In this document: positions 3,095 to 62,587 of the stretch, piece after piece
Numbering within the stretch: the first letter of the stretch is position 1
How the letters are laid out: every line of letters starts with the position of its first letter
NCBI GenBank assembly: GCA_029781865.1
Contig: JAKOVW010000030.1
Span: 93,694-157,693 of the forward strand
Direction: 5' to 3'
From: Bacteroidota bacterium
GTDB lineage: Bacteria; Bacteroidota; Bacteroidia; Chitinophagales; Saprospiraceae
DNA length: 64,000 bases
Made by a program: the position numbers and the translations under genes
The notes under the pieces: generated by a model
Told to the model about the DNA's origin: nothing
The model's database searches: none
What the model saw: only the letters and a program-made list of their open reading frames with translations

Positions 3095-3598
3095 AAAGTT
3101 GCAAGTTATAAATTTACAATAACAGGTGGAAAGAGTTGCAAGTTGCAAACTTGCAACAACAGGTAGGAAAAGTAGCAAGTTATAAACTTACAACAATGGG
3201 AAGTTGCAAGTTGCAAACTTGCAACAACGGGTTGCAAACTTGCAGCAACTGATGCAAGTTGCAAACTTGCAACAACGGGTTGCAAACTTGCAGCAACTGA
3301 TTATAAACTTGCAACAACAGGTTATAAACTTACAACAACGCGAAATTGCAAGTTGCAAACTTGCAATAACGGGGAACTTACAACAATGGGAAGTTGCAAG
3401 TTGCAAACTTGCAACAACGGGTGGGAAGTTGCAAACTTGCAATAACGGGGAACTTGCAGCAACTGATTATAAACTTGCAACAACGTGAAATTGCAAGTTG
3501 CAAACTTGCAACAACGGAGTTGCAAACTTGCAACAACGGATTGCAAACCTGCAACAACCGAGGTAATTAGTAATTCGTAATTAATAATTAGTAATTAA
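3095..3598. repeat. Palindromic heptamer array between bamA and ligA
   Basis: About 500 nt built from 7-nt units, mainly GTTGCAA, ACTTGCA and ACAACGG, often combined as a 21-nt super-unit. Six copies contain the perfect hairpin GTTGCAAGTT-gca-AACTTGCAAC (10-bp stem, 3-nt loop), near 3133, 3201, 3251, 3343, 3391 and 3488. Variant units (ATTATAA, ACAACAG, ACTTACA) stay in the same 7-nt register. The stretch ends with five TAATTNN heptamers (3564-3598), 3 nt from the bamA stop codon. ORFs appear on both strands because a 21-nt unit without stop codons is open in several frames; none has a credible start or homology. The plus-strand product would be a pseudo-coiled coil of NLQQ repeats, which I regard as an artefact. 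Confidence 0.9.
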
Positions 3599-3601
3599 TC
3601 T

Positions 3602-6136
3602 TTACTCCGGTTCGAATCCGAGTACAAGACTAAATTTGGAATAGCCACTGAGAGACGTTGACGATGGGTCAAGCCAGGGTTTGTCAAATCCAATACCATA
3701 ATCAAATCCAAGCAAACCAAACATCGGCAGAAAAACGCGTAATCCAAATCCTACTGATCGTTTTAATTCAAAAGGATTGTAATCTTTGAAAGCGGTCCAG
3801 GAATTTCCTCCTTGTGCCCATAGTGTACCATAAATAGTTGCGGTTGGATTCAATGAGAGCGGATAACGCAATTCCATGGTAAACTTATTGAAAATGGTTG
3901 CATCTTCCGGATCCGGATTGGTGCGCCTTTCTTCAACCGTTTTTGCCTTGACATCTTGCACTTCATAACCACGCAATGCAAAAATATCCCGACCGGTCAC
4001 TGTAAATGATTGATTATTCAATCCATCACCGCCCAAGACAAATCGTTCGAACGGAGGCGCTTTTAATTTTTTATTGTAATAGCCGAGTATTCCCATTTTT
4101 GCATTAAAGGAAAGAACGAGTTTATCAACCAGATTGAGATACCATTCCCCATCAAATCTCCACTTGTGATATTCAACCCAGCGGTATTTGTCACTCAAAC
4201 TCAGGCTATCCGGATTCCATCCGGATCTGAATAATGAATACGGCGGAGTAAGTTGTATCGATAATGCTAATCTGGAACCCGATCTTGGAAATAAAGGATC
4301 GGCAACTGTTGATCTGATAAATGTTTGCTTCAGTGATATGTTATAGAAATCTCCGTTATCAACCGGAGCAGCACCTGCATAAAATCCCACGTAATCTTTC
4401 AACCGAATGCGCTCCAGGTTTAAGGAAGCAGAAACAGCAAAATTATCATCAGGCCATACAAGCTGAGATCCTAATGTTCCATACAAACGGGCTATACTTA
4501 ACCGTCCACCGGAAGTTGTCGTCAATGAAGTATTGTCTATCAAACTGTAAATCCCACCAATGGATAAAGAAGTCGGACGCTTGCCACCTAACCAGGGTTC
4601 AGTAAAAGAAGCATTATACGATTGATAATATCTTCCATTGGTTTGCGCTCTTAAGGACAACTTTTGTCCATCCCCTTGTGGTAATGGTTTCCATGCTTCC
4701 TTTTTAAAAAAGTTATGCGTAGAAAAATTATTAAACACCACGCCAAGTGTACCGATGACCCCATATGCACTGTACCCTGCTGATAATTCCAATTGATCGG
4801 ATGGTCTTTCTTCTACGGCGTATTCAATGTCAACCGTTCCTCTTCTCGGATTTACCGGTGTATTAATACCCAGTGTTTCCGGATTAAAAAATCCCAAAGC
4901 CATTATTGCTCTTTGTGAACGTATGATATCGGACCGACTGAATTTTTGTCCGGGCTTGGTACGCAATTCTCTTCTGATTACATGTTCGTGAGTACGGTCA
5001 TTTCCTTTTACGATAACCTTATCGATAGTCGCAGGAGGACCTTCGGTAATTCGTATTTCAATATCTACCGAATCATTTTCAATGGCTGTCTCTACAGGCT
5101 CTGCTTTAAAAAACAAATAGCCTTCATCCATGTACAAACTACTGACATCACGTCCATCCTGGGCAAAGCTCAATCGTTTCTGTAATAATTCCTGATTATA
5201 AACATCTCCTTTCTGAATGCCCAACACATTTTTAATATGCTTCTCCGGATATAGTGAATTTCCTTTAATCGAAATATTTCTGAAATAAAACCGATTGCCC
5301 TCATGCAAATCAATATGAATATTCATCTTGCCATTCGCAATACGCCAGATCGAATCACCTATGATATCGGCATTCCGGAATCCAATACTATTGTAATAAT
5401 TGATAATACTGGCTTTATCCTTCTCATATTTATCTTCTTCGAATTTCGACTTTCCAAAAATCTTCCAGAATCTAGCGCGCTTGGTTTCACTCATTTGTTT
5501 GCGCAACTTAGATGCACTGACTTCTTTGTTACCGGAAAACGTGATGTTGGCAATCTTGACTTTGTCTCCTTTTTTGATATCGATTAAGAGTTTAACTGTG
5601 TTTGGTTTTTTTTCATCCGGAGATTCGGTGATGACCACCTTAGCATCGAGATACCCTTTTTCGTAAAAATATTTTTGAATATTATCAATCAATGCTTCCT
5701 TGATCTCGCCGGTGAATATGGAATTTTTAGGCAAGTGATTGGATACGATTACATTTAAATCTTCGTGAGTCGACTTTTTGACTCCTTTGTAGGAATGCGT
5801 AGAATATCTGGGCTTTTCTTTTACATGGATTTCCAAACTGACCACATTGCCAACTTGATTGGCAAAGGTTATTTCCACCTGTGTAAACAAGCGTTGCTTG
5901 TAAATTGCTTTGATTGCATTCTGAATATCCGGACCCGGAAGTGTAATTTTTTGTCCTACGCGGATTCCTGAAATCCCAATAATTGCTTTTTCATCACTGA
6001 ATTCATTTCCTGTGACTTTTATGCCGGAAATTTCATAGGACTTGTTGTTATATTCAATGAATTCCTGTTGCTGGGCATTCAAACTCAAGGAGAACTGTAA
6101 AAATAGATATAGGAGACCAGGGACAATTTTATTCAT
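3602..6136 (-). CDS. bamA: Outer-membrane assembly factor BamA (Omp85 family)
   Basis: Inserts beta-barrel proteins into the outer membrane. A signal peptide (MNKIVPGLLYLFLQFSLSLNAQ) is followed by several POTRA domains with typical motifs (ISGIKVTGNEFSDEKAI; KIANITFSGNKEVSASKL; NISIKGNSLYPEKHI; IDKVIVKGNDRTHEHVI) and then the Omp85 barrel, including the lid-lock-like VLGGDGL and RGYE segments. It ends SKFSLVLGFEPE. The ORF track starts at a TTG (6148); the ATG at 6136 gives 844 aa and a standard signal peptide. In many Bacteroidota uppS, bamA and an OmpH-like chaperone gene form one unit. Here uppS is upstream on the same strand but 513 nt away, and ligA replaces ompH downstream. The T-loop-like GGTTCGAATCC at the gene end is coding sequence, not a tRNA. 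Confidence 0.95.
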   Translation of the reverse strand: MNKIVPGLLYLFLQFSLSLNAQQQEFIEYNNKSYEISGIKVTGNEFSDEKAIIGISGIRVGQKITLPGPDIQNAIKAIYKQRLFTQVEITFANQVGNVVSLEIHVKEKPRYSTHSYKGVKKSTHEDLNVIVSNHLPKNSIFTGEIKEALIDNIQKYFYEKGYLDAKVVITESPDEKKPNTVKLLIDIKKGDKVKIANITFSGNKEVSASKLRKQMSETKRARFWKIFGKSKFEEDKYEKDKASIINYYNSIGFRNADIIGDSIWRIANGKMNIHIDLHEGNRFYFRNISIKGNSLYPEKHIKNVLGIQKGDVYNQELLQKRLSFAQDGRDVSSLYMDEGYLFFKAEPVETAIENDSVDIEIRITEGPPATIDKVIVKGNDRTHEHVIRRELRTKPGQKFSRSDIIRSQRAIMALGFFNPETLGINTPVNPRRGTVDIEYAVEERPSDQLELSAGYSAYGVIGTLGVVFNNFSTHNFFKKEAWKPLPQGDGQKLSLRAQTNGRYYQSYNASFTEPWLGGKRPTSLSIGGIYSLIDNTSLTTTSGGRLSIARLYGTLGSQLVWPDDNFAVSASLNLERIRLKDYVGFYAGAAPVDNGDFYNISLKQTFIRSTVADPLFPRSGSRLALSIQLTPPYSLFRSGWNPDSLSLSDKYRWVEYHKWRFDGEWYLNLVDKLVLSFNAKMGILGYYNKKLKAPPFERFVLGGDGLNNQSFTVTGRDIFALRGYEVQDVKAKTVEERRTNPDPEDATIFNKFTMELRYPLSLNPTATIYGTLWAQGGNSWTAFKDYNPFELKRSVGFGLRVFLPMFGLLGFDYGIGFDKPWLDPSSTSLSGYSKFSLVLGFEPE

Positions 6137-12562: not shown

Positions 12563-12950
12563 GCGCAGATTGGAGGATTAAGCAGATGGCGCAGATTTTA
12601 TATTTGCATGTGATTTTTGTAGTGATGGATTAAATCAACCAGGAACGCAGATTGGAGGATTAAGCAGATGGCGCAGATTTTATTTTTGCATGCGCACTAT
12701 ACACTAATGGAATAAATGTAATTCTTACAAGAACTTAGTGCCAAACAATCTGAAGTTAATTCAGATCTATGGTCTATTCTTCGTTTTGGAATTCAGTCTG
12801 ATTAAAAATGCCATTATATATCTCTGTTAAATTGCTTTGGGAAGTTCGATGCAGAAAATTGATGATTAATGGCATTCTCAGAAGTATTCACCACTCTTAG
12901 TTTTAACTCAATATTTAGATTCAATAAGCCGTTTTATAGCCTTCAATGTT
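12563..12950. repeat. Two 38-bp direct repeats downstream of the barrel gene
   Basis: An identical 38-nt sequence beginning CGCAGATTGGAGGATTAAGC occurs at 12564-12601 and 12646-12683, with weaker similarity continuing another 10 nt (ATTTGCATGTG / TTTTGCATGCG). The first copy starts one base after the TAA of the barrel gene. The remaining sequence up to the moxR promoter shows no ORF or strong hairpin. Confidence 0.85.
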
Positions 12951-20745: not shown

Positions 20746-22485
20746 ATGAGCAATTTCATATTCGCAATTACCCTGTTTTTTATTTTTTCATTATCTGAAA
20801 TTCATTCTCAATCCCTCCTCACCCCATTCGAAAAAAACAACAAGACCACCACGACCTACGAAGAATGCATCAGCTTTTATAAGAATCTTGAAAAAACATC
20901 CAAACTGGTAAAGGTAATCGAAGCCGGTCCCTCCGACGTAGGCTATCCGATTCATACGATTGTTTTAAGCAGTCACAATGATTTTACCGCAGAGAAATCG
21001 CGAAAATCCGGCAAAACGATACTCCTGATCAATAATGGCATACATCCAGGAGAACCGGAAGGTATCGATGCCAGCATGTTGTACGCACGGGAAATGGTCA
21101 CTGACGGCAACAAAAGTAAACTCCTGGATCAGATTACGATCGTGATTATTCCGATATACAATGTCGGTGGAAGTCTGAACAGAAATAGTTTCAGCAGAGT
21201 GAATCAAAACGGTCCGTCGGAATATGGCTTCAGGGGCAATGCACAAAATCTGGATCTCAACCGCGATTTTATCAAATGCGATTCTAAGAATGCAGAAACA
21301 TTTACCCACATATTCCAAAACTGGGATCCGGATGTTTTTGTCGATACTCATTGTACGGATGGCGCTGATTATCCATACCTGATGACGCTGATCACCTCAC
21401 AACGGCATAAACTTCAAAAACAACTGGGGGATTTTGTCTACTCCCATTTTGTTCCGGCTTTTTACGACAAGATGAAATCAGAAGGACTGGAGGCCTTTCC
21501 TTATATTAATTCTGATGGCGACCCATCCACGGGTATTTCCGATTTAATGGACAGCCCAAGATTTTCAAGCGGATACGCGGCGCTGTTTCATTGTATTCCG
21601 TTTATCAGCGAATCGCACATGCTCAAACCTTATGATGCCAGAGTGAATGCGCAAAAAATTTTGTTGCGAAGTCTTGCTTTGGTTTGCGTAGATTACAAAA
21701 AACAAATTTTTGAAATCCGGAAAACGGCCAAAGAAAATTACAGAAAACAAACTGATGTAACCATTAATTGGAAAATACAAAAGCAAACGACCGACAGCAT
21801 TTTATTTCATGGCTATGAAGTGGAAAAAATGACCAGTGAGGTGACCGGCCTGGAACGAATAAAATACAACCGGAACAAACCCTACGAAAAGAAAATTCCA
21901 TTTTTCGATTACGGAAAACCGGATCTCAAAATACAACGACCGGATGTTTATATTGTCCCTGCCGCATATCAACAGGTCATCGAACGATTAAAATGGAATG
22001 GCGTTCAGATGCAGATGCTAAGCAAAGACAGCATGATCAAAGCAGAATATTATCGGATCATCGATTACAAATCTCCGGCTAAACCCTATGAAAATCATTT
22101 TCTCCACAGTCAGATCGAATTGGAAACAATAAAAACAAAGCGCAAATTTTTTAAAGGCGACTACCTGATCAAAACAGATCAGCCTTCCATGCGCTACATT
22201 ATCGAAACATTAGAACCACAAGCACCTGATTCTTATTTCGCCTGGAATTTTTTCGATGCGATGCTGCAACGCAAAGAGTATTTTTCCAATTACCTGTTTG
22301 AAGATATCGCCACAGAATTACTGCAAAACAATTATACCCTTCGGGAAGACTTCGAAAAACGCAAACGCGATGATCCTGCATTCGCAAAAGATCCGGATGC
22401 CATGCTTAACTTTATTTATTCCAGATCAAAATTCAGTGAGCCGGGCTATATGATTTATCCGGTAGCTAGATGGAGGGAGGAGTAG
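20746..22485 (+). CDS. Secreted M14-family zinc carboxypeptidase
   Basis: 579 aa with a signal peptide (MSNFIFAITLFFIFSLSEIHSQS). The catalytic domain has the zinc HxxE motif in NNGIHPGEPEGIDASML, NVGGSLNRNSFSRVNQNGP, the NLDLNRDF element, the third zinc His in VDTHCTDGADYPY, and FISESHML, which probably holds the catalytic-acid region. The C-terminal third (from about residue 330) is a beta-rich extension with no recognised motif. It probably trims peptides in the periplasm or outside the cell. It stands alone; a heptamer array begins right after its stop codon. Confidence 0.87.
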   Translation: MSNFIFAITLFFIFSLSEIHSQSLLTPFEKNNKTTTTYEECISFYKNLEKTSKLVKVIEAGPSDVGYPIHTIVLSSHNDFTAEKSRKSGKTILLINNGIHPGEPEGIDASMLYAREMVTDGNKSKLLDQITIVIIPIYNVGGSLNRNSFSRVNQNGPSEYGFRGNAQNLDLNRDFIKCDSKNAETFTHIFQNWDPDVFVDTHCTDGADYPYLMTLITSQRHKLQKQLGDFVYSHFVPAFYDKMKSEGLEAFPYINSDGDPSTGISDLMDSPRFSSGYAALFHCIPFISESHMLKPYDARVNAQKILLRSLALVCVDYKKQIFEIRKTAKENYRKQTDVTINWKIQKQTTDSILFHGYEVEKMTSEVTGLERIKYNRNKPYEKKIPFFDYGKPDLKIQRPDVYIVPAAYQQVIERLKWNGVQMQMLSKDSMIKAEYYRIIDYKSPAKPYENHFLHSQIELETIKTKRKFFKGDYLIKTDQPSMRYIIETLEPQAPDSYFAWNFFDAMLQRKEYFSNYLFEDIATELLQNNYTLREDFEKRKRDDPAFAKDPDAMLNFIYSRSKFSEPGYMIYPVARWREE

Positions 22486-22492
22486 TGGGCTG

Positions 22493-22722
22493 TTGAAAGT
22501 TAGGAGTTAGAGGTTAGGGGTTATCAAGTGATTAATGATGAGTGATAAGTGTTAGGTGTTGGACTCTAAATTAAAATTGAAAATAGGAAGAAATAGTATA
22601 GGTGCATAGTCATCTTTTTAGTTCCGGTTTCGACAAAATAAAATACTATAGCTTTTTACCAAAAGACCTGGTAGTACCATTTTCCTCCTAACTTCTAACT
22701 CCTAACTTCTAACTCCTAACTC
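22493..22722. repeat. Opposed heptamer arrays after the M14 peptidase gene
   Basis: From about 22493 the sequence runs in 7-nt steps: AGTTAGG, AGTTAGA, GGTTAGG, GGTTATC, AAGTGAT, TAATGAT, GAGTGAT, AAGTGTT, AGGTGTT. After about 130 nt of ordinary sequence, 22688-22722 holds five CTAACTY heptamers in the opposite orientation (reverse complement of RAGTTAG). The two arrays thus face each other like inverted repeats. Confidence 0.85.
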
Positions 22723-22755
22723 ACATCTCCTTATCCCAACTGCCAACTTTTTCCC

Positions 22756-22763
22756 TATCTTTG
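22756..22763 (+). promoter_or_regulatory. -7 promoter box for yebC
   Basis: TATCTTTG, an exact TAnnTTTG match, ending 22 nt before the yebC ATG at 22786. It lies just beyond the CTAACTY array. Confidence 0.6.
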
Positions 22764-22785
22764 CCCCCCTTAAGTAATCGCTTTT

Positions 22786-23496
22786 ATGGGTCGAATTTTT
22801 GAAGTTAGAAAGCATACCATGTTTGCCCGTTTTGCTAAGATGAGCAAGCAGTTTGCCAGGGTCAGCAAAGAAGTATTTATGGCTGTTAAGGCCGGCGGTC
22901 CAAATCCGGACACCAATCCGAGACTTCGGGCAGCTATGCAGAATGCTAAATCCTGCAACATGCCTAAGGACCGCGTTGAAGCGGCGATCAAAAAAGCAAG
23001 CGGCAAAGATGAAAAGGATCTCGAAACCCTTATTTATGAAGGCTATGGTCCGCATGGGGTTGCCATATTGGTAGAAACGGCTACGGATAATCATACCAGA
23101 ACAGTAGCCAATATCAGGTCTTATTTTAATAAATTCGGAGGCAGCTTAGGCACCAGAGGTTCTATTGATTATTTGTTTGAACACAAGTGCAATTTCAGAA
23201 TTCGTAAAACGGCAGACATTGATCCGGAAATGCTGGAACTCGAACTTATCGACGCAGGTTGCGAGGAACTTTCTGTCGACGGTGACGAACTGATTATCTA
23301 TGCACCTTTTGATTGCTTCGGAAGTCTCCAGCATTATTTTGAAACGCATTCCATGGAAATCATCTCATCCGGATTTGATCGCATACCAACAGTCACCAAA
23401 AAACTGACACCCGAACAAGCAGAGGAACTCAATAAACTACTCGATAAAATTGAAGATGATGAGGATGTTCAAAATGTTTACAGCAACATAGAATAA
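22786..23496 (+). CDS. YebC/PmpR-family protein
   Basis: 236 aa, normal family length. It has the family opening in shortened form (MGRIFEVRKHTMFARFAKMSKQF), then PNPDTNPRLRAAMQNAKSCNMPKDRVEAAIKKA, YEGYGPHGVAILVETATDN and NKFGGSLGTRGSIDYLF. The family was long called a transcription regulator; recent work on relatives points to helping ribosomes through difficult sequences such as polyproline. The role here is not decided by sequence. The next gene starts 15 nt later on the same strand, so this is the first gene of a yebC - membrane TPR - GH3 unit. Confidence 0.93.
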   Translation: MGRIFEVRKHTMFARFAKMSKQFARVSKEVFMAVKAGGPNPDTNPRLRAAMQNAKSCNMPKDRVEAAIKKASGKDEKDLETLIYEGYGPHGVAILVETATDNHTRTVANIRSYFNKFGGSLGTRGSIDYLFEHKCNFRIRKTADIDPEMLELELIDAGCEELSVDGDELIIYAPFDCFGSLQHYFETHSMEIISSGFDRIPTVTKKLTPEQAEELNKLLDKIEDDEDVQNVYSNIE

Positions 23497-23511
23497 AACT
23501 CCCGGCTAATT

Positions 23512-25452
23512 ATGTCATCAACCCATTCAGAACGGATGCATCGATTGTTGTATGACATCAAACTTCACAAAATCATTTTACTCTTACTTGCATTTTTACT
23601 CTATGCAAATACGCTTGGGCATCAGTTCGTACTGGATGATGGTATCGTCATTACAGAAAACAAATTTGTAAAAAACGGTATCAGCGGTATCCCGGATCTT
23701 ATTTCCAAGGATTCTTTTTATGGATTTTTTAAAAAACAGGGCAAAGAGAAACTCGTCGCCGGTGGTCGCTATCGCCCGATGAGCCTGATTTTATTTGCTT
23801 GTGTTTACCAGTTGTTTGGGGCAGAACCGGCCATCTTTCATTTTTTATCCATCCTGCTCTATGGCATTTTAGGTATTGCATTCTATTTACTGCTGCAAAA
23901 ATTATTCAGTCCGAAGCTTCAAAATCTATCCACACCTTTTGCCCTTTTTGCAGCCCTGCTATTTATTGCACATCCCGTGCATACCGAATGCGTTGCCAAC
24001 ATTAAAGGCGCTGATGAAATTTGTGCCCTTCTGTTTTCTTTGCTGGCATTTTATTTTTCCTTGTGGTATGCAGATACCAAAAAACATATTTATCTGCTGA
24101 TCGCATCGGTTTGCTTTTTATCCGGATTGCTATCCAAGGAAAATGCCATTGCCTATCTTGCATTTATACCTGTAGCGATTTACGTTTTATATTCCAATGA
24201 CAAATCATCCACTTTCAGGATTAGTGCTTCACTGGTCGCTTCGACTTTGATATTTTTATTCATGAGAGCGGAAGTTCTTGGATTCAATCCATTTACCGGT
24301 CTTTCCAATGAGTTGATGAATAATCCTTTTGTAAAAATATCCAACGGCGTTAGTCAGCCGATGAATTTTTTTGAAAAAGCCGGAATCATAAGTTACACTT
24401 TATTTGAATATCTGAGACTATTGATTTTTCCACATCCACTTACCCATGACTACTATCCAAAACAAATACCGGTATTGGGATTGATTTCGGTAAAATCGTT
24501 GCTGGCTATTCTATTATATGGAAGTATGATTTTATTCGCTGTAATAAAAATCAGGAAGAATCCGGTAATCAGTGTCAGTATAATCTGCTATTTATTTCCC
24601 CTATTTCTCGTTTCAAATATTTTATTTCCTATTGGAACGAATATGGGTGAACGATTTTTATTCATGCCTTCCGTAGGATTTTGCATCATCATTGCATTTT
24701 TGCTTGCAAACTATATTCGCACGAATCTGAATAATGCGGTTTATGTGATGGGGATTCTGTGCGTACTCTATTCGATCAAAACTATTTTGAGGAATCCGGC
24801 CTGGCATGACAACCTGACCCTGTTTACGACGGATGTAAAAACATCAAACAATAGTGCCAAGATTCACAATGGAATTGCAGGCATGATGTTGGAAAAAGTA
24901 CCGGAATTAAAAGACAGTGCGGAAATCCGGAAGATCACTTCCAAAGCAAGAGTGGAATTGGAAAAAGCACTTGCCATTCATCCATTGTATACGGAAGCAC
25001 AACTGCAAATGGGCAACATTCATTATTTTGAAAAGAATTATGAAGAAGCCATTAAAAGATACAATATCGTACTTAAGAATTTGCCGGAAGATGAAGATGC
25101 CTTTAAAAATCTCCAGATGGCATTACGGGAACGTGGCCGGCAGATTGGAATGCAAACGGGAAACATCGCATTGGCAAAAGATTATCTGAAACAATCATTG
25201 GGCATGAATCCCAAAGATGCAGAAGCTATGATGCTAATGGGGATTGCAGAAGGTTCATCCGGCAATTATCCGGAAGCGGCCGGTAATTTCTACAAAGTAC
25301 TTGAATCCGAACCCAAAAATGCACAGGCTTATTTTAACCTGGGAATCACGTTCAGAAATTCAGGACAAATGACCCGGGCGGATTCCATGTTTCAGGAAGC
25401 GGCACGTTTGGATCCTAAAATTTATGAGAAAAACGGAGTACCCGGAAAATGA
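23512..25452 (+). CDS. TMTC-like polytopic membrane protein with C-terminal TPRs
   Basis: 646 aa. The first ~440 residues form about ten to eleven membrane segments. The first extracytoplasmic loop reads NTLGHQFVLDDGIVITEN, with an acidic DD pair in the position typical of GT-C glycosyltransferases. HPVHTECVANIKGADEICALL and GMLSKE-like SGLLSKENAIAYL match the TMTC / DUF1736 protein-mannosyltransferase group. The C-terminal ~190 residues are tetratricopeptide repeats (AQLQMGNIHYFEKNYEEAIKRYN; AQAYFNLGITFRNSGQM). It probably transfers a sugar from a polyprenyl carrier to protein, but activity is inferred. It overlaps the GH3 gene by 4 nt (ATGA), so the two are translationally coupled. Confidence 0.78.
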   Translation: MSSTHSERMHRLLYDIKLHKIILLLLAFLLYANTLGHQFVLDDGIVITENKFVKNGISGIPDLISKDSFYGFFKKQGKEKLVAGGRYRPMSLILFACVYQLFGAEPAIFHFLSILLYGILGIAFYLLLQKLFSPKLQNLSTPFALFAALLFIAHPVHTECVANIKGADEICALLFSLLAFYFSLWYADTKKHIYLLIASVCFLSGLLSKENAIAYLAFIPVAIYVLYSNDKSSTFRISASLVASTLIFLFMRAEVLGFNPFTGLSNELMNNPFVKISNGVSQPMNFFEKAGIISYTLFEYLRLLIFPHPLTHDYYPKQIPVLGLISVKSLLAILLYGSMILFAVIKIRKNPVISVSIICYLFPLFLVSNILFPIGTNMGERFLFMPSVGFCIIIAFLLANYIRTNLNNAVYVMGILCVLYSIKTILRNPAWHDNLTLFTTDVKTSNNSAKIHNGIAGMMLEKVPELKDSAEIRKITSKARVELEKALAIHPLYTEAQLQMGNIHYFEKNYEEAIKRYNIVLKNLPEDEDAFKNLQMALRERGRQIGMQTGNIALAKDYLKQSLGMNPKDAEAMMLMGIAEGSSGNYPEAAGNFYKVLESEPKNAQAYFNLGITFRNSGQMTRADSMFQEAARLDPKIYEKNGVPGK

Positions 25453-28364
25453 AAAAACACATCCTGTTCTTCATCCTATTAATTACTTCATCGGTAGTAT
25501 TTTCACAAGCATCCCGGCAGACGATATGGGTTGATAGTGTATTGCAAAATATGACTCTCGATGAAAAACTCGGCCAGCTTTTTATTATCAGATCCTTTGC
25601 CAAAAAAGAAGAGGAACAATCTATCAAAATATTATCCCTGATTAAAGACTTTCACATCGGTGGTGTTTGCTTTTTTAAAGGAACTGTACCTGCAATGGTT
25701 GACCTGATCAACCGGTACCAGTCTCTTTCCAGGTGGCCTTTACTGATGAGCATGGATGCAGAATGGGGAATGGGTATGCGTCTTACGGATTTGTTGAGTT
25801 TTCCTAAACAAATTACCCTGGGTGCTATGGAAAACAATCAATTGATTTATCAAATGGCTCGCGAAATGGCAGCACAGATGAAGGATCTTGGCATTCACAT
25901 GAACTTCGCACCCGTGTTGGATATCAACAACAATATTTGCAATCCGGTGATTAATGAACGATCGTTCAGTTCAAACCGGAAAAAAGTTATTGCAAAATCA
26001 TTTGCTTACATGCAGGGCTTACAGGATGGTGGCGTTCTATCCTGTCTTAAACATTTTCCCGGGCATGGTGATACGGAAATTGATTCACATGCTGATCTGC
26101 CGACCATAAACTGCAGCAAGCAACGACTCGACAGTATCGAATTATATCCGTTTAAAGCGATTATCGATTTACATCCTGCATCTGTCATGGTTGCTCATTT
26201 GAATATACCCGCACTCGACAGCACAAAAGATAACCCGGCAACATTATCATCTGCCATTGTGAAAAGCCTGTTGAGAACTGAATACAATTATGACGGACTC
26301 ATCATCACAGATGCTCTTGAAATGAAAGGAGTCACACGGAAATTTACTGCTGCTGAAATCGCGCTCAAAGCATTTCAGGCAGGTAATGACCTGCTCTTGC
26401 TCAGTGAAGATATCCCCGCTGCTTTGATTGCTTTAAAAAACGCATTGTATTCCGGAGAAATTACCGTAACGCAATTAGATGAAAAAGTGAAACGAATATT
26501 GATGGCAAAATACCACGCGGGGCTTTCCAATTTTCAACCCATTCAGATTGACTCCAATTGGATAAAAAGATCAAATCTCCGATCGCAATCAATCAAACAA
26601 GACATTTATAAAAAAGCATTTACGTTAGCAAGAGATAAAAACAATCTGGTACCGGTACGAAACATTCCTTCAAAAATTGTTCACCTGAATATCAATGGAG
26701 ATCCGGATAATGGTTTTCAGAAACGGATTAAAGATTATGCAGATCTAACTACGTTTTCATTTTCCAATTCAGATCATTGGAATCCACAACTAAATCCTGT
26801 ACTAGAAGATGCGGATTTAATTCTGATCAGTTTGCATAAATTAAATTATTCGGAATCCAGATATTACGGATTGAACGAAGAGTTCATTCAGGAATTAAAT
26901 CCGTTGATTGCGGGTAAGAAATGCATCATAACGGTCTTTGGCTGTCCTTATGTAAGCATGCTATTTCCCAAAAGCTGCAGTTTGTTCCTTGCGTATGAAG
27001 ACAATGAGATATCTATGGATCTCGCTGCACAAATGTTATTCGGTACCGATCCTATCGCAGGAAGCTCACCTGTGGATGTATATGACCTTTTGCAGGAAGG
27101 CTCCGGCATACAACTGCCTGCATTAATGAGATTGGGTTACAGCAATCCGGAATCTCAGGGAATGAACAGTGATAGTCTTCAAAAAATAGATTCGCTTGCA
27201 ACTGAATTGATTCAGCATCAGGCAGCACCGGGTTGTCAGATCGTCGTTGTAAAAAATAATCATATCGTTTTTCGAAAAGCCTACGGATTTTTTACGTACG
27301 ATTCAATTACGCCGGTAACTGATCACAGTATGTACGACCTTGCTTCACTGACCAAAATCGTTTGTACTGCACCCGTACTTATGAAACTTTTTGACGAGCA
27401 TAAATATGAAGTTGAGGATAAATTTGCCAATTACTTTCCGGAATTCGGCAATAGCAATAAATCAGATCTGACATTAAAAGATTTTATGCTTCACCAGGGC
27501 AAACTGGTTGCATGGATTCCATTTTATAAATCTACCTTGATCTCTCCGGATACACTTAATGTTTTAGATCACAGCTACTATGGCAAAGTCCCTTCCTTCC
27601 GGTTTAATATTCCGGTCAGTGATAGTTTATACCTGAGATCCGATTACCGAGATACTATCTTTCAGAAAATTCTGGATTCTAAATTATTGGATGAAAAAAA
27701 ATACCTGTATTCCGATATTGGTTTTTATTTCATGCCAAGGTTTGTTCAACAATTAACTCAACAGGGATTTGAACCCTATTTCAATAAAAACTTTGTAAAG
27801 CCACTATCCCTTAGATACACTGCATTTAATCCACTGTCAAAACAATATTCAAAAAATCAAATTGCTCCTACTGAAGTGGATAATTATTATCGTCACCGGG
27901 TAATTCAGGGTTATGTGCACGACATGGGTGCTGCTATGCTAGGTGGCATAAGTGGTCATGCAGGATTATTTTCAACAGCTACTGATGTAGCCACTATCAT
28001 GCAAATGATATTAAACCATGGAACCTACGGCGATGTGACTTATTTCAATGCAAATACATTTTCAAAATTTACCACAAGAGATCCGGAATTATCGCGAAGA
28101 GCTTTGATATTTGATATGCCGGAATTAATAGACTCGTCCACTGCTTATGTTTCTCCCCTAGCATCCAAAAAAACGTTCGGTCATCAGGGTTTTACCGGTA
28201 CCTGCACGTGGGTAGACCCAGAACATAAATTGATTTATGTATTTTTATCAAACAGAACCTATCCTGACTCCAAGATAAATCTATTGCATAAAAACAGGTA
28301 CAGAAGGAAAATACAGGAAGTGATTTACAAATCTATCATGAATGAGAAGCAGGAAGTGGATTAA
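25449..28364 (+). CDS. Secreted GH3 glycosidase fused to a beta-lactamase-type domain
   Basis: 971 aa. Signal peptide MKKHILFFILLITSSVVFSQ. The N-terminal GH3 domain carries KHFPGHGDT (201-209) with His nearby (DSH), the NagZ-type signature, and the nucleophile Asp288 in LIITDALEMKGV; this suggests beta-N-acetylhexosaminidase action on muropeptides. A GH3 C-terminal alpha/beta domain follows. From about residue 590 a serine beta-lactamase/DD-peptidase fold begins: S633-L-T-K636 (SxxK), a YSD triad near 755, and a HQGFTG motif near the end. The fusion joins sugar cleavage with peptide or ester hydrolysis of cell-wall fragments. This arrangement is known in Bacteroidota and is often annotated as glycoside hydrolase family 3. 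It is coupled to the TMTC-like gene. Confidence 0.92.
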   Translation: MKKHILFFILLITSSVVFSQASRQTIWVDSVLQNMTLDEKLGQLFIIRSFAKKEEEQSIKILSLIKDFHIGGVCFFKGTVPAMVDLINRYQSLSRWPLLMSMDAEWGMGMRLTDLLSFPKQITLGAMENNQLIYQMAREMAAQMKDLGIHMNFAPVLDINNNICNPVINERSFSSNRKKVIAKSFAYMQGLQDGGVLSCLKHFPGHGDTEIDSHADLPTINCSKQRLDSIELYPFKAIIDLHPASVMVAHLNIPALDSTKDNPATLSSAIVKSLLRTEYNYDGLIITDALEMKGVTRKFTAAEIALKAFQAGNDLLLLSEDIPAALIALKNALYSGEITVTQLDEKVKRILMAKYHAGLSNFQPIQIDSNWIKRSNLRSQSIKQDIYKKAFTLARDKNNLVPVRNIPSKIVHLNINGDPDNGFQKRIKDYADLTTFSFSNSDHWNPQLNPVLEDADLILISLHKLNYSESRYYGLNEEFIQELNPLIAGKKCIITVFGCPYVSMLFPKSCSLFLAYEDNEISMDLAAQMLFGTDPIAGSSPVDVYDLLQEGSGIQLPALMRLGYSNPESQGMNSDSLQKIDSLATELIQHQAAPGCQIVVVKNNHIVFRKAYGFFTYDSITPVTDHSMYDLASLTKIVCTAPVLMKLFDEHKYEVEDKFANYFPEFGNSNKSDLTLKDFMLHQGKLVAWIPFYKSTLISPDTLNVLDHSYYGKVPSFRFNIPVSDSLYLRSDYRDTIFQKILDSKLLDEKKYLYSDIGFYFMPRFVQQLTQQGFEPYFNKNFVKPLSLRYTAFNPLSKQYSKNQIAPTEVDNYYRHRVIQGYVHDMGAAMLGGISGHAGLFSTATDVATIMQMILNHGTYGDVTYFNANTFSKFTTRDPELSRRALIFDMPELIDSSTAYVSPLASKKTFGHQGFTGTCTWVDPEHKLIYVFLSNRTYPDSKINLLHKNRYRRKIQEVIYKSIMNEKQEVD

Positions 28365-28420
28365 GGAGTTTGGAGTTAGGAGCTAGGAACTAGGAACTAG
28401 GGGTTAGGAGTTTGGAGTGA
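28365..28420. repeat. Eight-unit heptamer array starting at the GH3 stop codon
   Basis: Eight 7-nt units in strict register: GGAGTTT, GGAGTTA, GGAGCTA, GGAACTA, GGAACTA, GGGGTTA, GGAGTTT, GGAGTGA. The first base follows the TAA of the GH3 gene directly. Confidence 0.92.
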
Positions 28421-28518
28421 TGAACTAGGTGGTTAATTCTAATTAATATAAGTTATTGGGTATTGATTAAGGATTCCATGTCGCTAAGGAATGAAAGCAT
28501 TCTTCTATAAAACAAAAA

Positions 28519-28562
28519 GGAGACAAAGAAACAAACGCGTTGTCGTTTGTTTCTTTGTCTCC
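28519..28562. terminator. Strong 19-bp stem-loop
   Basis: GGAGACAAAGAAACAAACG (28519-28537) pairs perfectly with 28544-28562 around a 6-nt loop, CGTTGT. A-rich sequence precedes it and CTTTTCCC follows. It lies 155 nt past the GH3 stop. It could end transcription from either side, although no pure T-run follows. It directly precedes the 128-bp repeat array. Confidence 0.6.
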
Positions 28563-28578
28563 CTTTTCCCATAAGAAA

Positions 28579-29150
28579 ATGCAACGTCATTCCGAGCGGC
28601 AGCGAGGAATCTCTTGTTAATGATAATTACATATCCCATACCTCCGAAGATTCTCTCTTAAAAAATTGACTTATCCTTTATCTGACAGGTATCACTCTAA
28701 AAAAATGCAATGTCATTCCGAGCGGCAGAGAGGAATCTCTTTTTAATGATAATGACATATCCTATACCTCCGACGTTTCTCTCTTAAAAATTTGACTTGC
28801 CCTTTATCTGACAGGTATTACTCTAAAAAAAAATGCAACGTCATTCCGAGCGGCAGCGAGGAATCTCTTGTTAATGATAATGACATATCCCATACCTCCG
28901 ACGATTCTCTCTTAAAAATTTGACTTGTCCTTTATCTGACAGGTATCACTCTAAAAAAAAATGCAACGTCATTCCGAGCGGCAGCGAGGAATCTATTGTA
29001 AATGGTAATGACATATCCCATACCTCCAACTATTCTCTCTTAAAAAATGACTTATCCTTTATCTGACAGGTATCACTCCTAAAAAAAAATGCAACGTCAT
29101 TCTGAGCGGCAGCGAGGAATCTCTTGTAAATGGCACTTACATATCTCTTG
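28579..29150. repeat. Tandem array of ~128-bp units (four full, one partial)
   Basis: Units begin ATGCAACGTCATTCCGAGCG at 28579, 28705, 28833, 28961 and 29089 (spacing 126, 128, 128, 128). Each has the core GTCATTCCGAGCGGCAGCGAGG, a middle part (AATGACATATCCCATACCTC), a CTCTCTTAAAAA stretch, CCTTTATCTGACAGGTATCA and an A-run of five to nine bases. The fifth copy decays after about 60 nt. Differences are scattered point changes. Neighbouring units are more alike than copies at the 18.9-kb site, so this array grew locally. No ORF spans it, and there are no unique spacers, so it is not CRISPR. Confidence 0.93.
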
Positions 29151-29415: not shown

Positions 29416-29471
29416 ACCTAAGGACCTAAAAACCTAAATACCTAAATACCTAAATACCTAAATACCTTATT
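29416..29471. repeat. Octamer array ACCTAAAT
   Basis: Units in 8-nt register: ACCTAAGG, ACCTAAAA, then four ACCTAAAT, then ACCTTATT. It lies 24 nt before the permease start, in what should be its promoter or leader. It differs from the other simple arrays by its 8-nt period. Confidence 0.9.
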
Positions 29472-32667: not shown

Positions 32668-33307
32668 ACAATCTGTGATAGGATTATAGAATGATGGTAT
32701 AAGCTATGATCGAAAATACCATTGTCTCTATAAGATATTTCTGATAAAAAACCGGCACTATTCAAATTATTAAAGACAGCTCTACAGCCTTTAGTCTTAA
32801 GCTTATAAGCGAATGTGGTTTTTTTTAGTATTCGTGTAATGATAATATTAAAAAATGCAGACCATTGCTGTAAGAGATATAAATTCTAAAACCCAAGTTG
32901 CAGATTCCTATACGCTTTTTATTTACTTCATCGGGAACGCTACAGATACATAGAAAGATTTTCTTAAACGCAAAGAACGCAAAGGTTTCGCAAAGAGCGC
33001 AAAGGTTTCTTAAACAGGCAAGGGTTTTGCAATGAGCGCAAAGAATGAATTCGAAAAACTACTATTTAGAAATGAACCGAATACAAGACTGGTATTATTA
33101 CGCTTTTTATTTACTTAATCGGGAACGCTACAGATACGTAGAAAGATTTTCTTAAACGCAAAGGTTTCGCAAAGAACGCAAAGGTTCCTTAAAGAGGCAA
33201 AGGTTTTGCAATGAGCGCGAAGAATGCATTCGAAAAACTACTATTTAGAAATGAACTGAATACAAGACTGGTATTATCAGGAATTGAATGATTTCAAATG
33301 GTCATCA
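32668..33307. repeat. Tandem ~188-bp duplication rich in CGCAAAG motifs
   Basis: Two adjacent copies begin ACGCTTTTTATTTACTT at about 32912 and 33100 and end GAATACAAGACTGGTATTAT. They differ by point changes and one small deletion in the CGCAAAG section (AACGCAAAG, AGCGCAAAG, GTTTCGCAAAG). A related CTTTGCG stretch in reverse orientation lies at 41861-41895. The first ~240 nt (32668-32911) show no feature. No ORF is present. Confidence 0.85.
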
Positions 33308-60415: not shown

Positions 60416-61096
60416 ATGAACTTAGAAAATGTAAGCTTTACCTATAATACATCGCAGGCAGAACTCATCATGCCGGAATATGGCCGCAATGTGCAGGATC
60501 TCGTCATTCATTGCAAGTCCATTGAAAATCCGGATTTGCGCCAGGCTTTTGCAGAAGAAGTAGTCAACCTGATGCAGATCATGACTCCGTATAACCGGAA
60601 TATTGATGAACACCGTAAAAAACTATGGCATCATTTTTTCAGAATTGCCAAGTACGATATCAATGTCGTAACTCCTTATGGTTTCATTCCAACACCGGAT
60701 GAAGATAAACTCAGACCGGAGCGAATCTTGTATCCTAAAGGAACAGATAAATACAGGCATTATGGCAATTATGTAAATATCCTTATTAAAAAAGCACTTG
60801 AAATGGAACCCGGTCAAAAGCAGGATGAATTTGCCCACATCATCGGTTCCTATATGAAAATGGCTTATAAAAACTGGAATAAGGAACACTACGTCAGTGA
60901 TGAATTGATTAAAAATGATCTTGCCGTCATGTCAAATGGTAAATTGGTCATTGATGAAAATATACAATTCAATTCACTGGTGAATTCGCCTGCAAAAAAT
61001 CAGCGACGAGTTTATAAAGGTCAGAACAAACAGAATTTCCGCAAGAAAAATAACAACAACAGGAATAGGAATAATAATTATAAGAAGAGAGCTTGA
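60416..61096 (+). CDS. DUF4290 protein
   Basis: 226 aa. It contains the family's opening FTYNTSQAELIMPEYGRNVQDLVIHC and the later RYHRHYGNYV-like DKYRHYGNYVNILIKKALEME. Mainly helical and cytoplasmic. The C-terminal 35 residues are Asn/Lys/Arg-rich (RKKNNNNRNRNNNYKKRA), which looks like a flexible nucleic-acid-binding tail. It is 6 nt after glmS in the same unit. The function is unknown; the basic tail suggests RNA contact, an inference from composition only. Confidence 0.88.
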   Translation: MNLENVSFTYNTSQAELIMPEYGRNVQDLVIHCKSIENPDLRQAFAEEVVNLMQIMTPYNRNIDEHRKKLWHHFFRIAKYDINVVTPYGFIPTPDEDKLRPERILYPKGTDKYRHYGNYVNILIKKALEMEPGQKQDEFAHIIGSYMKMAYKNWNKEHYVSDELIKNDLAVMSNGKLVIDENIQFNSLVNSPAKNQRRVYKGQNKQNFRKKNNNNRNRNNNYKKRA

Positions 61097-61110: not shown

Positions 61111-61187
61111 AGTAGTTAGGAGTTAGGAGTTAGAAGTGATGAGTGATGAGTGATTAATTAGTAATTAGTAATTGTTAATTTGTAATT
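61111..61187. repeat. Eleven-unit drifting heptamer array after DUF4290
   Basis: Units in strict 7-nt register: AGTAGTT, AGGAGTT, AGGAGTT, AGAAGTG, ATGAGTG, ATGAGTG, ATTAATT, AGTAATT, AGTAATT, GTTAATT, TGTAATT. Sequence changes along the array while the period does not. It begins 14 nt after the stop codon. Confidence 0.93.
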
Positions 61188-61275: not shown

Positions 61276-62253
61276 ATGCTTACAAAAGAACAATTCGATC
61301 TTATAGAAAAAGCGGCCCTTTCCTGTATCGATATTGAATCTAAAGCCATTTTAAATTTAACCGCTGCAATTGGCGCTTCGTTTCTAAACACGGTGGAAGC
61401 CTTATTTTCATCCAAAGGCAGAATTGTAGTTACCGGAATTGGCAAAAGCGCCATAATCGGACAAAAAATTGTTGCCACATTTAATTCAACCGGAACGCCT
61501 TCCTTGTTTATGCATGCAGCAGATGCGATACATGGTGACCTCGGAATGGTTCAGTCTGAAGATCTGGTCATCTGTATTTCTAAAAGCGGCGAAACTCCGG
61601 AAATCAAAGTGCTGATTCCGCTGGTTAAAAATTTAGGTTCAAAATTGATTGCCATTGTTGCAAACGAACAATCCACTTTGGCACGATTGGCGGATCATGT
61701 CATACTCACACCCGTTGCCATAGAAGCCGATCCGAATAATCTTGCACCTACGACAAGCACTACGGTACAATTGGTCATCGGAGATGCGATTGCCGTTGCA
61801 TTGCTGGCGCTGCGGGGATTCAGCACTAAAGAGTTTGCTCAATTTCATCCGGGAGGATCACTGGGAAAGCAACTCTATCTTAAAGTCAGCGATATTTATC
61901 CAAATCATCAAAAACCTGCTGTTTCCATACATGCAGATTTAAAAGAAGTCATTGTTGAAATGACCACTAAACGACTAGGCGTTACTGCAGTATTGAATGA
62001 TCAGAATCAACTGGCCGGAATTATTACCGATGGTGATTTGCGGAGAATGCTTCAAAAATCTGTTTCTCTGGATGCGCTATCAGCCAAAGACATCATGAGC
62101 TCAAATCCGAAAACCATTTCAGAAAATGCATTGGCAATCGAAGCATTCAAAATGTTAAAAGATCAAAACATTACTCAAATTCTCGTTGTTGAAAAAGATC
62201 AATATCTCGGAGTCATTCATATTCATGATTTGATTAAAGAAGGAATATTGTGA
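61276..62253 (+). CDS. kdsD: Arabinose-5-phosphate isomerase (KpsF/GutQ family)
   Basis: Interconverts ribulose-5-phosphate and arabinose-5-phosphate, the precursor of Kdo in LPS. 325 aa. The SIS domain has [41 protein letters not shown] and [19 protein letters not shown]; the second half has two CBS domains ([47 protein letters not shown]). The glmS-DUF4290-kdsD order places sugar supply for peptidoglycan and LPS in one block. It is flanked on both sides by heptamer arrays. Confidence 0.95.
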
Positions 62254-62412
<159 letters not shown>

Positions 62413-62503
62413 AAAAAAAATGGGTACAAAAGTTTGTTCACACAGATATCATTTATTTAATTTAAATATTTTTGAACTTTTTATATAAATCGCTATCACT
62501 CAT

Positions 62504-62587
62504 CAATAATCAATAATCAATAATCAATAATCAATAATCAATAACTATTAACCACTAACTGCTAACTCCTAACTCCTAACTAATAAC
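62504..62587. repeat. Twelve-unit heptamer array NNNTAAY before the rhomboid gene
   Basis: Register of seven: five CAATAAT, CAATAAC, TATTAAC, CACTAAC, TGCTAAC, two TCCTAAC, TAATAAC. The heptamer just before it, CACTCAT, is the reverse complement of ATGAGTG from the array at 61111, and TCCTAAC is that of GTTAGGA. This array is therefore the same composite type in opposite orientation, on the other side of kdsD. Confidence 0.93.

Follow-up and report, generated by a model that had tools for sequence, protein, structure and literature searches.

Heptamer arrays at gene junctions of a Saprospiraceae-like genome and their probable relation to 23S rRNA intervening sequences

Heptamer arrays in the window

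The window (the whole stretch of DNA analysed here, 64 kb) belongs to a 4.52-Mb, 93-contig Saprospiraceae-like genome (G000), whose nearest named relatives, judged by KdsD, are Saprospiraceae. Pfam confirmed the genes GH3, M14, DUF4290, SIS-CBS (KdsD-like) and POTRA/Omp85 (BamA-like). The window contains six period-7 arrays and one period-8 array, and none with periods of 4-6 or 9-12. These copies sit between protein genes, not inside 23S rRNA, and a search with Rfam over the window gave no match and no rRNA. The features are listed below, with the terms arm and core used in the sense developed later.

3563..3597, no strand assigned: AATTACT-type array, 4 nt behind the stop of the BamA gene (minus strand, stop at 3602)
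22498..22560, plus strand: degenerate left arm at the M14 site; the M14 stop ends at 22485, distance 12 nt; score 11.2, below the cut-off of 13
22685..22722, minus strand: right arm at the M14 site, complementary to the left arm; about 60 nt before a YebC/TACO1-family gene
28365..28418, plus strand: left arm at the GH3 site; the GH3 stop ends at 28364, distance 0 nt
29416..29467, minus strand: possible right arm at the GH3 site, 8-mer TACCTAAA units before an FtsX/MacB-like start; the left arm is not complementary to it
61111..61187, plus strand: left arm between DUF4290 and KdsD; the DUF4290 stop ends at 61096, distance 14 nt
62254..62412, plus strand: left (G-rich) arm between KdsD and rhomboid, (AGGCAGT)22.7; the KdsD stop ends at 62253, distance 0 nt
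62413..62494, no strand assigned: core of the KdsD-rhomboid insertion, 82 nt, A+T-rich, with no IVP ORF
62495..62587, minus strand: right arm of the KdsD-rhomboid insertion, C-rich on the plus strand; 31 nt before the rhomboid GTG start (62619)

A sequence-only reading had placed arrays directly behind the stop codons of these five genes, and all five exist at the distances listed. It had also described most of them as purine-rich in gene sense. This is true behind stop codons; the arrays that precede start codons (22685-22722, 62495-62587 and the 8-mers at 29416-29467) present their C-rich strand in gene sense, and the BamA array, which reads AATTACT in gene sense, is an exception with a polarity opposite to the rule given below. 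Within the DUF4290-KdsD arm the unit drifts in register from AGTTAGG to AGTGATG to AATTAGT. At the M14 site a 26-bp RNA stem is predicted between the arms, and the total fold energy is weakly better than that of shuffles (z -1.46). The KdsD and DUF4290 insertions fold no better than shuffles. We did not find an ORF for IVP (PF05635), the 23S rRNA intervening-sequence protein, in any of the window insertions, and a search for a repeated core found that of the KdsD insertion to be unique in the genome.

A role in transcription ending, suggested earlier from the link to 3′ ends, is not borne out. The GH3 gene has a separate terminator, a strong intrinsic hairpin with a 20-bp stem (28518-28563), about 90 nt downstream of its array. 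The DUF4290-KdsD and KdsD-rhomboid gaps, the two sites that fold no better than shuffles, showed no terminator-like site, and no GC-rich hairpin with a T run was found at the arrays themselves at these two sites or at GH3.

Other repeats also occur in the window. Four 128-bp tandem repeats with CATTCCGAGCGGCAGCGAGGAATCTC (28576-29132) lie within the core of the GH3 site. Palindromic repeats of another family, GTTGCAAACTTGCAACAACGG, adjoin the heptamer array between the BamA-like gene and its downstream neighbour (3095-3562), and a 179-bp duplication with AACGCAAAGGTTTCGC repeats, together with an 82-bp duplication, is found at 32911-33277 and 12564-12717.

Number, placement and polarity of the arrays

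A 1.01-Mb sample, about 22% of the genome, holds 69 period-7 arrays, vs. 0 in local shuffles and 0-12 arrays for other periods. The commonest units are AGGAGTT, AATTAGT, AACTAGG and AGTGATG; unit sequences drift and copy numbers vary. Genes were called with a small hexamer model, 51 intergenic arrays were scored, and the null model combined uniform placement inside each gap with random orientation (5000 simulations). In 20/51 arrays the G-rich strand has its 5′ end no more than 14 nt from a stop codon, where 3.4 ± 1.7 are expected, a count reached in 0/5000 simulations; the 3′ end of that strand is as close in seven of the 51 (3.5 expected). The link to stop codons noted in the window holds and is statistically strong. 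Start-codon edges showed no enrichment among the same 51 arrays, and arrays are rare between divergent gene pairs in the sample.

The arrays are tandem 7-nt units, intergenic, with the G-rich strand reading away from the ordinary gene that they abut, so that sense orientation is opposite in 5′ flanks. Neighbouring arrays of opposite class face inward in 14 pairs and outward in none across three data sets: seven vs. none in this genome, two vs. none in one relative and five vs. none in 80 other Bacteroidota loci. The link to gene 3′ ends claimed from the window is real, and it is only half of a symmetric rule that runs from the stop of the upstream gene to near the start of the downstream one. 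A gradient from G to AT along the arrays, an impression gained in the window, was dropped as weak genome-wide (G, p 0.18; GC, p 0.027), and a search for asymmetric decay of periodicity beyond the array edges gave nothing convincing.

Comparison with a genome of the same genus

The contig of the window has a syntenic counterpart, contig C15, in a genome of the same genus (G004). Three co-directional gaps that bear arrays measure 179 nt (DUF4290-KdsD), 365 nt (KdsD-rhomboid) and 362 nt here vs. 9 nt, -1 nt (a TAATG overlap) and 57 nt in G004, while 22 conserved array-free neighbour pairs have gaps that agree (medians 98 vs. 86 nt). Judged by these lengths, the arrays are insertions relative to G004, and the small stop-to-array distances reflect small target gaps. 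None of 13 relatives examined has an array at the orthologous KdsD locus; identity at KdsD does not exceed 68%, and so only gap lengths can be compared within the genus. Of the earlier suggestions, the one that these insertions into short junctions and the empty sites described below support is insertion chosen to leave genes unbroken. Arms begin at the upstream stop and end near the downstream start, since a complete unit was inserted into a short junction, and the stop-codon link would thus reflect the insertion site rather than a function in termination.

At a fourth shared gap, G004 has an intact PF05635 gene inside inward-facing heptamer arms made of other words, and our genome has a decayed copy (C10:70491). 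The IVP gene at this gap prompted a test of the association between IVP genes and arms.

IVP genes between heptamer arms

PF05635 is present in 130/153 good genomes of this order. The order set comprised 31 IVP matches from the loci that scored best in the order; selection used the protein score, irrespective of repeats. A period-7 array lies within 150 nt in 28/31 of them, and 16/31 have a G-rich left and a C-rich right arm. On plasmids, mostly cyanobacterial, arms flank the IVP gene on both sides in 12 of 14 loci and are G-rich on the left and C-rich on the right in ten. None of 324 non-IVP control genes from two same-genus genomes has this arrangement (Fisher 1e-19). IVP genes lie inside the arms and ordinary genes outside them. 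In IVP cassettes an arm is more complementary to its own partner than to the arms of other cassettes (p 1e-4 for plasmids, 0.012 for the order). Ten ORFs tested were all PF05635, and IVP has weak matches to bAvd. IVP arms share heptamer words with the remaining arrays of their genome or lineage, and these words are rare elsewhere.

Within our own genome, about half of the IVP genes (C61, C60, C31) have no arms at the thresholds used, and IVP-less arm pairs show no specific complementarity (p 0.61). A second cargo family, PF13366 (GxxExxY), was looked for and has one copy only in the genome. There is one reverse-transcriptase ORF; this permits an RNA route and is no demonstration of one. A literature search, thin on subscription journals, found no paper that links heptamer arrays with IVP.

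On cyanobacterial plasmids, IVP cassettes separate cas6 from cas4 and cas10 from cmr3 (L254, L255, L258). IVP genes in cas loci were reported earlier (PMC3936711), and that report may describe operon insertions with no role in CRISPR. In Riemerella, a heptamer-armed IVP cassette separates sufB from a sufA-like gene (L263); the record, labelled as a plasmid, carries lepA and is possibly a piece of chromosome.

Empty and truncated sites

Related plasmids fix the insertion points at single-base resolution. In Trichormus variabilis a 428-nt IVP cassette with arms at both ends lies directly behind a stop codon. The same site is empty in Nostoc linckia (97.9% identity), and in Nostoc C052 its content is reduced to the left arm and the beginning of the IVP ORF (L266). 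With the remainder of the element lost, such a truncated copy presents itself as an array directly behind a stop codon. Two plasmids of Nostoc ATCC 53789 have IVP cassettes at two successive junctions of one operon, and one of these junctions is a TAATG overlap in a relative. The empty-site pairs are Trichormus/Nostoc linckia, pNsp_a/C052, pNsp_c (the next junction of the same operon) and C052/C057. Nine IVP insertions were measured. In eight of them the distance from the stop codon to the left arm is -10 to 13 nt, mostly 1-6 nt, which matches the window; L254, the remaining one, has several arrays. Repeats of 3-6 nt occur at the junctions of three sites only (GTAAT, TTCTAR, ATG) and may be due to chance. 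We established no recombinase, no repeated core and no clear target-site duplication. In Azospirillum lipoferum a heptamer-armed IVP cassette lies inside the 23S (LSU) rRNA, at a position that its flanks place in helix 45.

Relation to known repeats and elements

Classical 23S rRNA intervening sequences (IVSs), e.g., that of Coxiella burnetii, have complementary ends and an S23p ORF and are excised by RNase III (PMC4990558). The complete cassettes resemble them in being insertions of about 430 nt with a central IVP/S23p ORF and complementary termini that would form a stem, and the Azospirillum copy is itself in 23S rRNA (PMC4990558 for the IVS). Unlike IVSs, the elements here sit at protein-gene junctions and have period-7 arms, and the ORF is absent from the copies in the window although relatives with the same arms carry it. 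Complementary termini are found at the M14 site (the 26-bp stem) and in the IVP cassettes, and not at the KdsD and DUF4290 sites.

STRR are heptamer repeats of cyanobacteria. The arrays here are like them in having a period of 7, and the genera concerned also carry armed IVP cassettes. Three heptanucleotides of Calothrix are cited in PMC4692102. In that paper, Rehm et al. describe GGGAATC and GGGGA(C/T)T repeats of Xanthomonas and Nostoc as G-quadruplex repeats. These are, like ours, tandem intergenic heptamers whose G-strand is the coding strand directly behind a stop and the non-coding strand before a start; the unit sequence differs, and the passages on them make no link to insertion or IVP (PMC4692102). 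Runs of 3-4 G, as in a quadruplex-capable unit, are not found in our commonest units, which have no run of three G. The TAACTGA direct repeats that MacGregor reports from Beggiatoaceae, Cyanobacteria and Bacteroidetes are also intergenic heptamers, with the C-strand towards start codons, a polarity compatible with ours, and repeat-free relatives have shorter gaps. The relevant passages explain them as translational control and do not link them to IVP (PMC4679880).

The four-helix-bundle IVP is a distant relative of the Avd accessory proteins of diversity-generating retroelements (PF22296; PMC10053308), which says nothing certain about IVP mobility. Compared with MITEs, which have terminal inverted repeats and a target-site duplication, the elements here have inward-facing arms, and short junction repeats at three sites only.

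Origin of the arrays

We consider it probable, at roughly three chances in four, that the arrays represent arms of small selfish elements, of the same kind as 23S rRNA IVSs and inserted at gene junctions. The complete element would work like a 23S rRNA IVS, and we class it as a variant that occupies operon junctions. The window copies lack the ORF and would be derivatives. Since only three intact IVPs adjoin arrays in the 1.01-Mb sample (C5, C11, C20), we infer the descent of the other, IVP-less arrays from IVP elements, because they share period, polarity, insertion sites and genome-wide words with them, and because one truncated copy has been found.

The arrays could also be ordinary minisatellites that grew by slippage in unconstrained intergenic DNA, with their proximity to stops due to short gaps and to selection against gene damage. 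The excess of period 7 in many bacteria was earlier put down to slippage, a view discussed in PMC4679880 and PMC4692102, and the drift of units, the variable copy numbers and the majority of arrays with no IVP agree with this. However, slippage predicts no polarity, no inward pairing (14 vs. 0) and no tie to one protein family, nor would it yield a clean 428-nt insertion bounded by two arms. We find this explanation unlikely. Slippage may well shape the arms after insertion, and the empty sites and the polarity argue against it as the sole cause.

It is rather improbable that the arrays belong to independent MITE-like heptamer elements moved by another enzyme, with IVP genes as passengers at the same insertion sites. 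Many pairs have no IVP, their cores are mutually unrelated, and the arms of our genome are not mutually complementary, as such elements would have it; against them stand the truncated IVP copy that leaves only a left arm (L266) and the presence of IVP cassettes with heptad arms in Bacteroidota and cyanobacteria and in alphaproteobacterial 23S rRNA, in words that differ by genome. The arrays could also be host RNA elements of gene ends: terminators, mRNA-end stabilisers, translational regulators, which PMC4679880 proposes for TAACTGA, or G-quadruplexes, which PMC4692102 proposes for GGGAATC. This would fit the placement right behind stops and before starts and the purine-rich sense strand at 3′ ends. 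The separate terminator at the GH3 site, the 13 relatives with an arrayless KdsD locus, the lack of three-G runs in the commonest units and the reversed sense orientation in 5′ flanks make such a function very improbable.

In the IVS-like reading, a complete element consists of a G-rich heptamer arm, the IVP ORF and an inverted C-rich heptamer arm. It inserts at intercistronic junctions directly behind the stop, as the empty sites show, and in one case, in Azospirillum, inside 23S rRNA. Because the arms are inverted, a transcript of either strand would have the purine-rich arm first and the pyrimidine-rich arm last, and the arms are predicted to form a stem that tolerates slips of whole heptamers. 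RNase III would probably cut the stem, as it does that of 23S IVSs, or the stem would just be tolerated, so that co-transcribed genes would survive. For mobility, a reverse transcriptase acting in trans may have IVP as its Avd-like RNA-binding partner, a step that we put forward with much reserve. In this genome most copies would have lost the IVP ORF and kept one or both arms, which then diverged; the loss is seen in part in the truncated Nostoc copy and the decayed IVP at C10:70491, and is presumed for the other copies.

Intergenic heptamer repeats occur in several phyla and have no accepted origin. In Bacteroidota and Cyanobacteria, the "four helix bundle" genes of PF05635 are common orphans of no known role. 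Joining heptamer arrays, PF05635 and 23S IVSs would replace these two puzzles by a single element that can be tested and whose insertion sites are known. If true, it would account for PF05635 genes inside CRISPR, suf and conjugation operons. As a wider and tentative suggestion, on which we would bet at somewhat less than even odds, IVP marks a phylum-crossing class of RNA-borne selfish elements, perhaps reverse-transcribed with IVP acting like Avd, which aim at stops and operon junctions and leave heptamer arrays as scars, so that most reported intergenic heptamers of Cyanobacteria, Xanthomonas, Beggiatoaceae and Bacteroidota would be their remains.

Other observations on the arrays

Two contigs (C5 and C10; L001-L009) end in (AGGCAGT)n; these arrays thus interrupt the assembly, and the copy numbers given may be too low. 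On contigs C2 and C8 (L018, L024), repeated genes are accompanied by AATTACT and ACTAACA arrays that differ between copies (three vs. five units), which offers material for a study of array turnover. One gap (L052, 9286-10096) holds a row of six heptamer arrays, up to 115 nt long (GTTATCGGTTATC...), which form a higher-order repeat.
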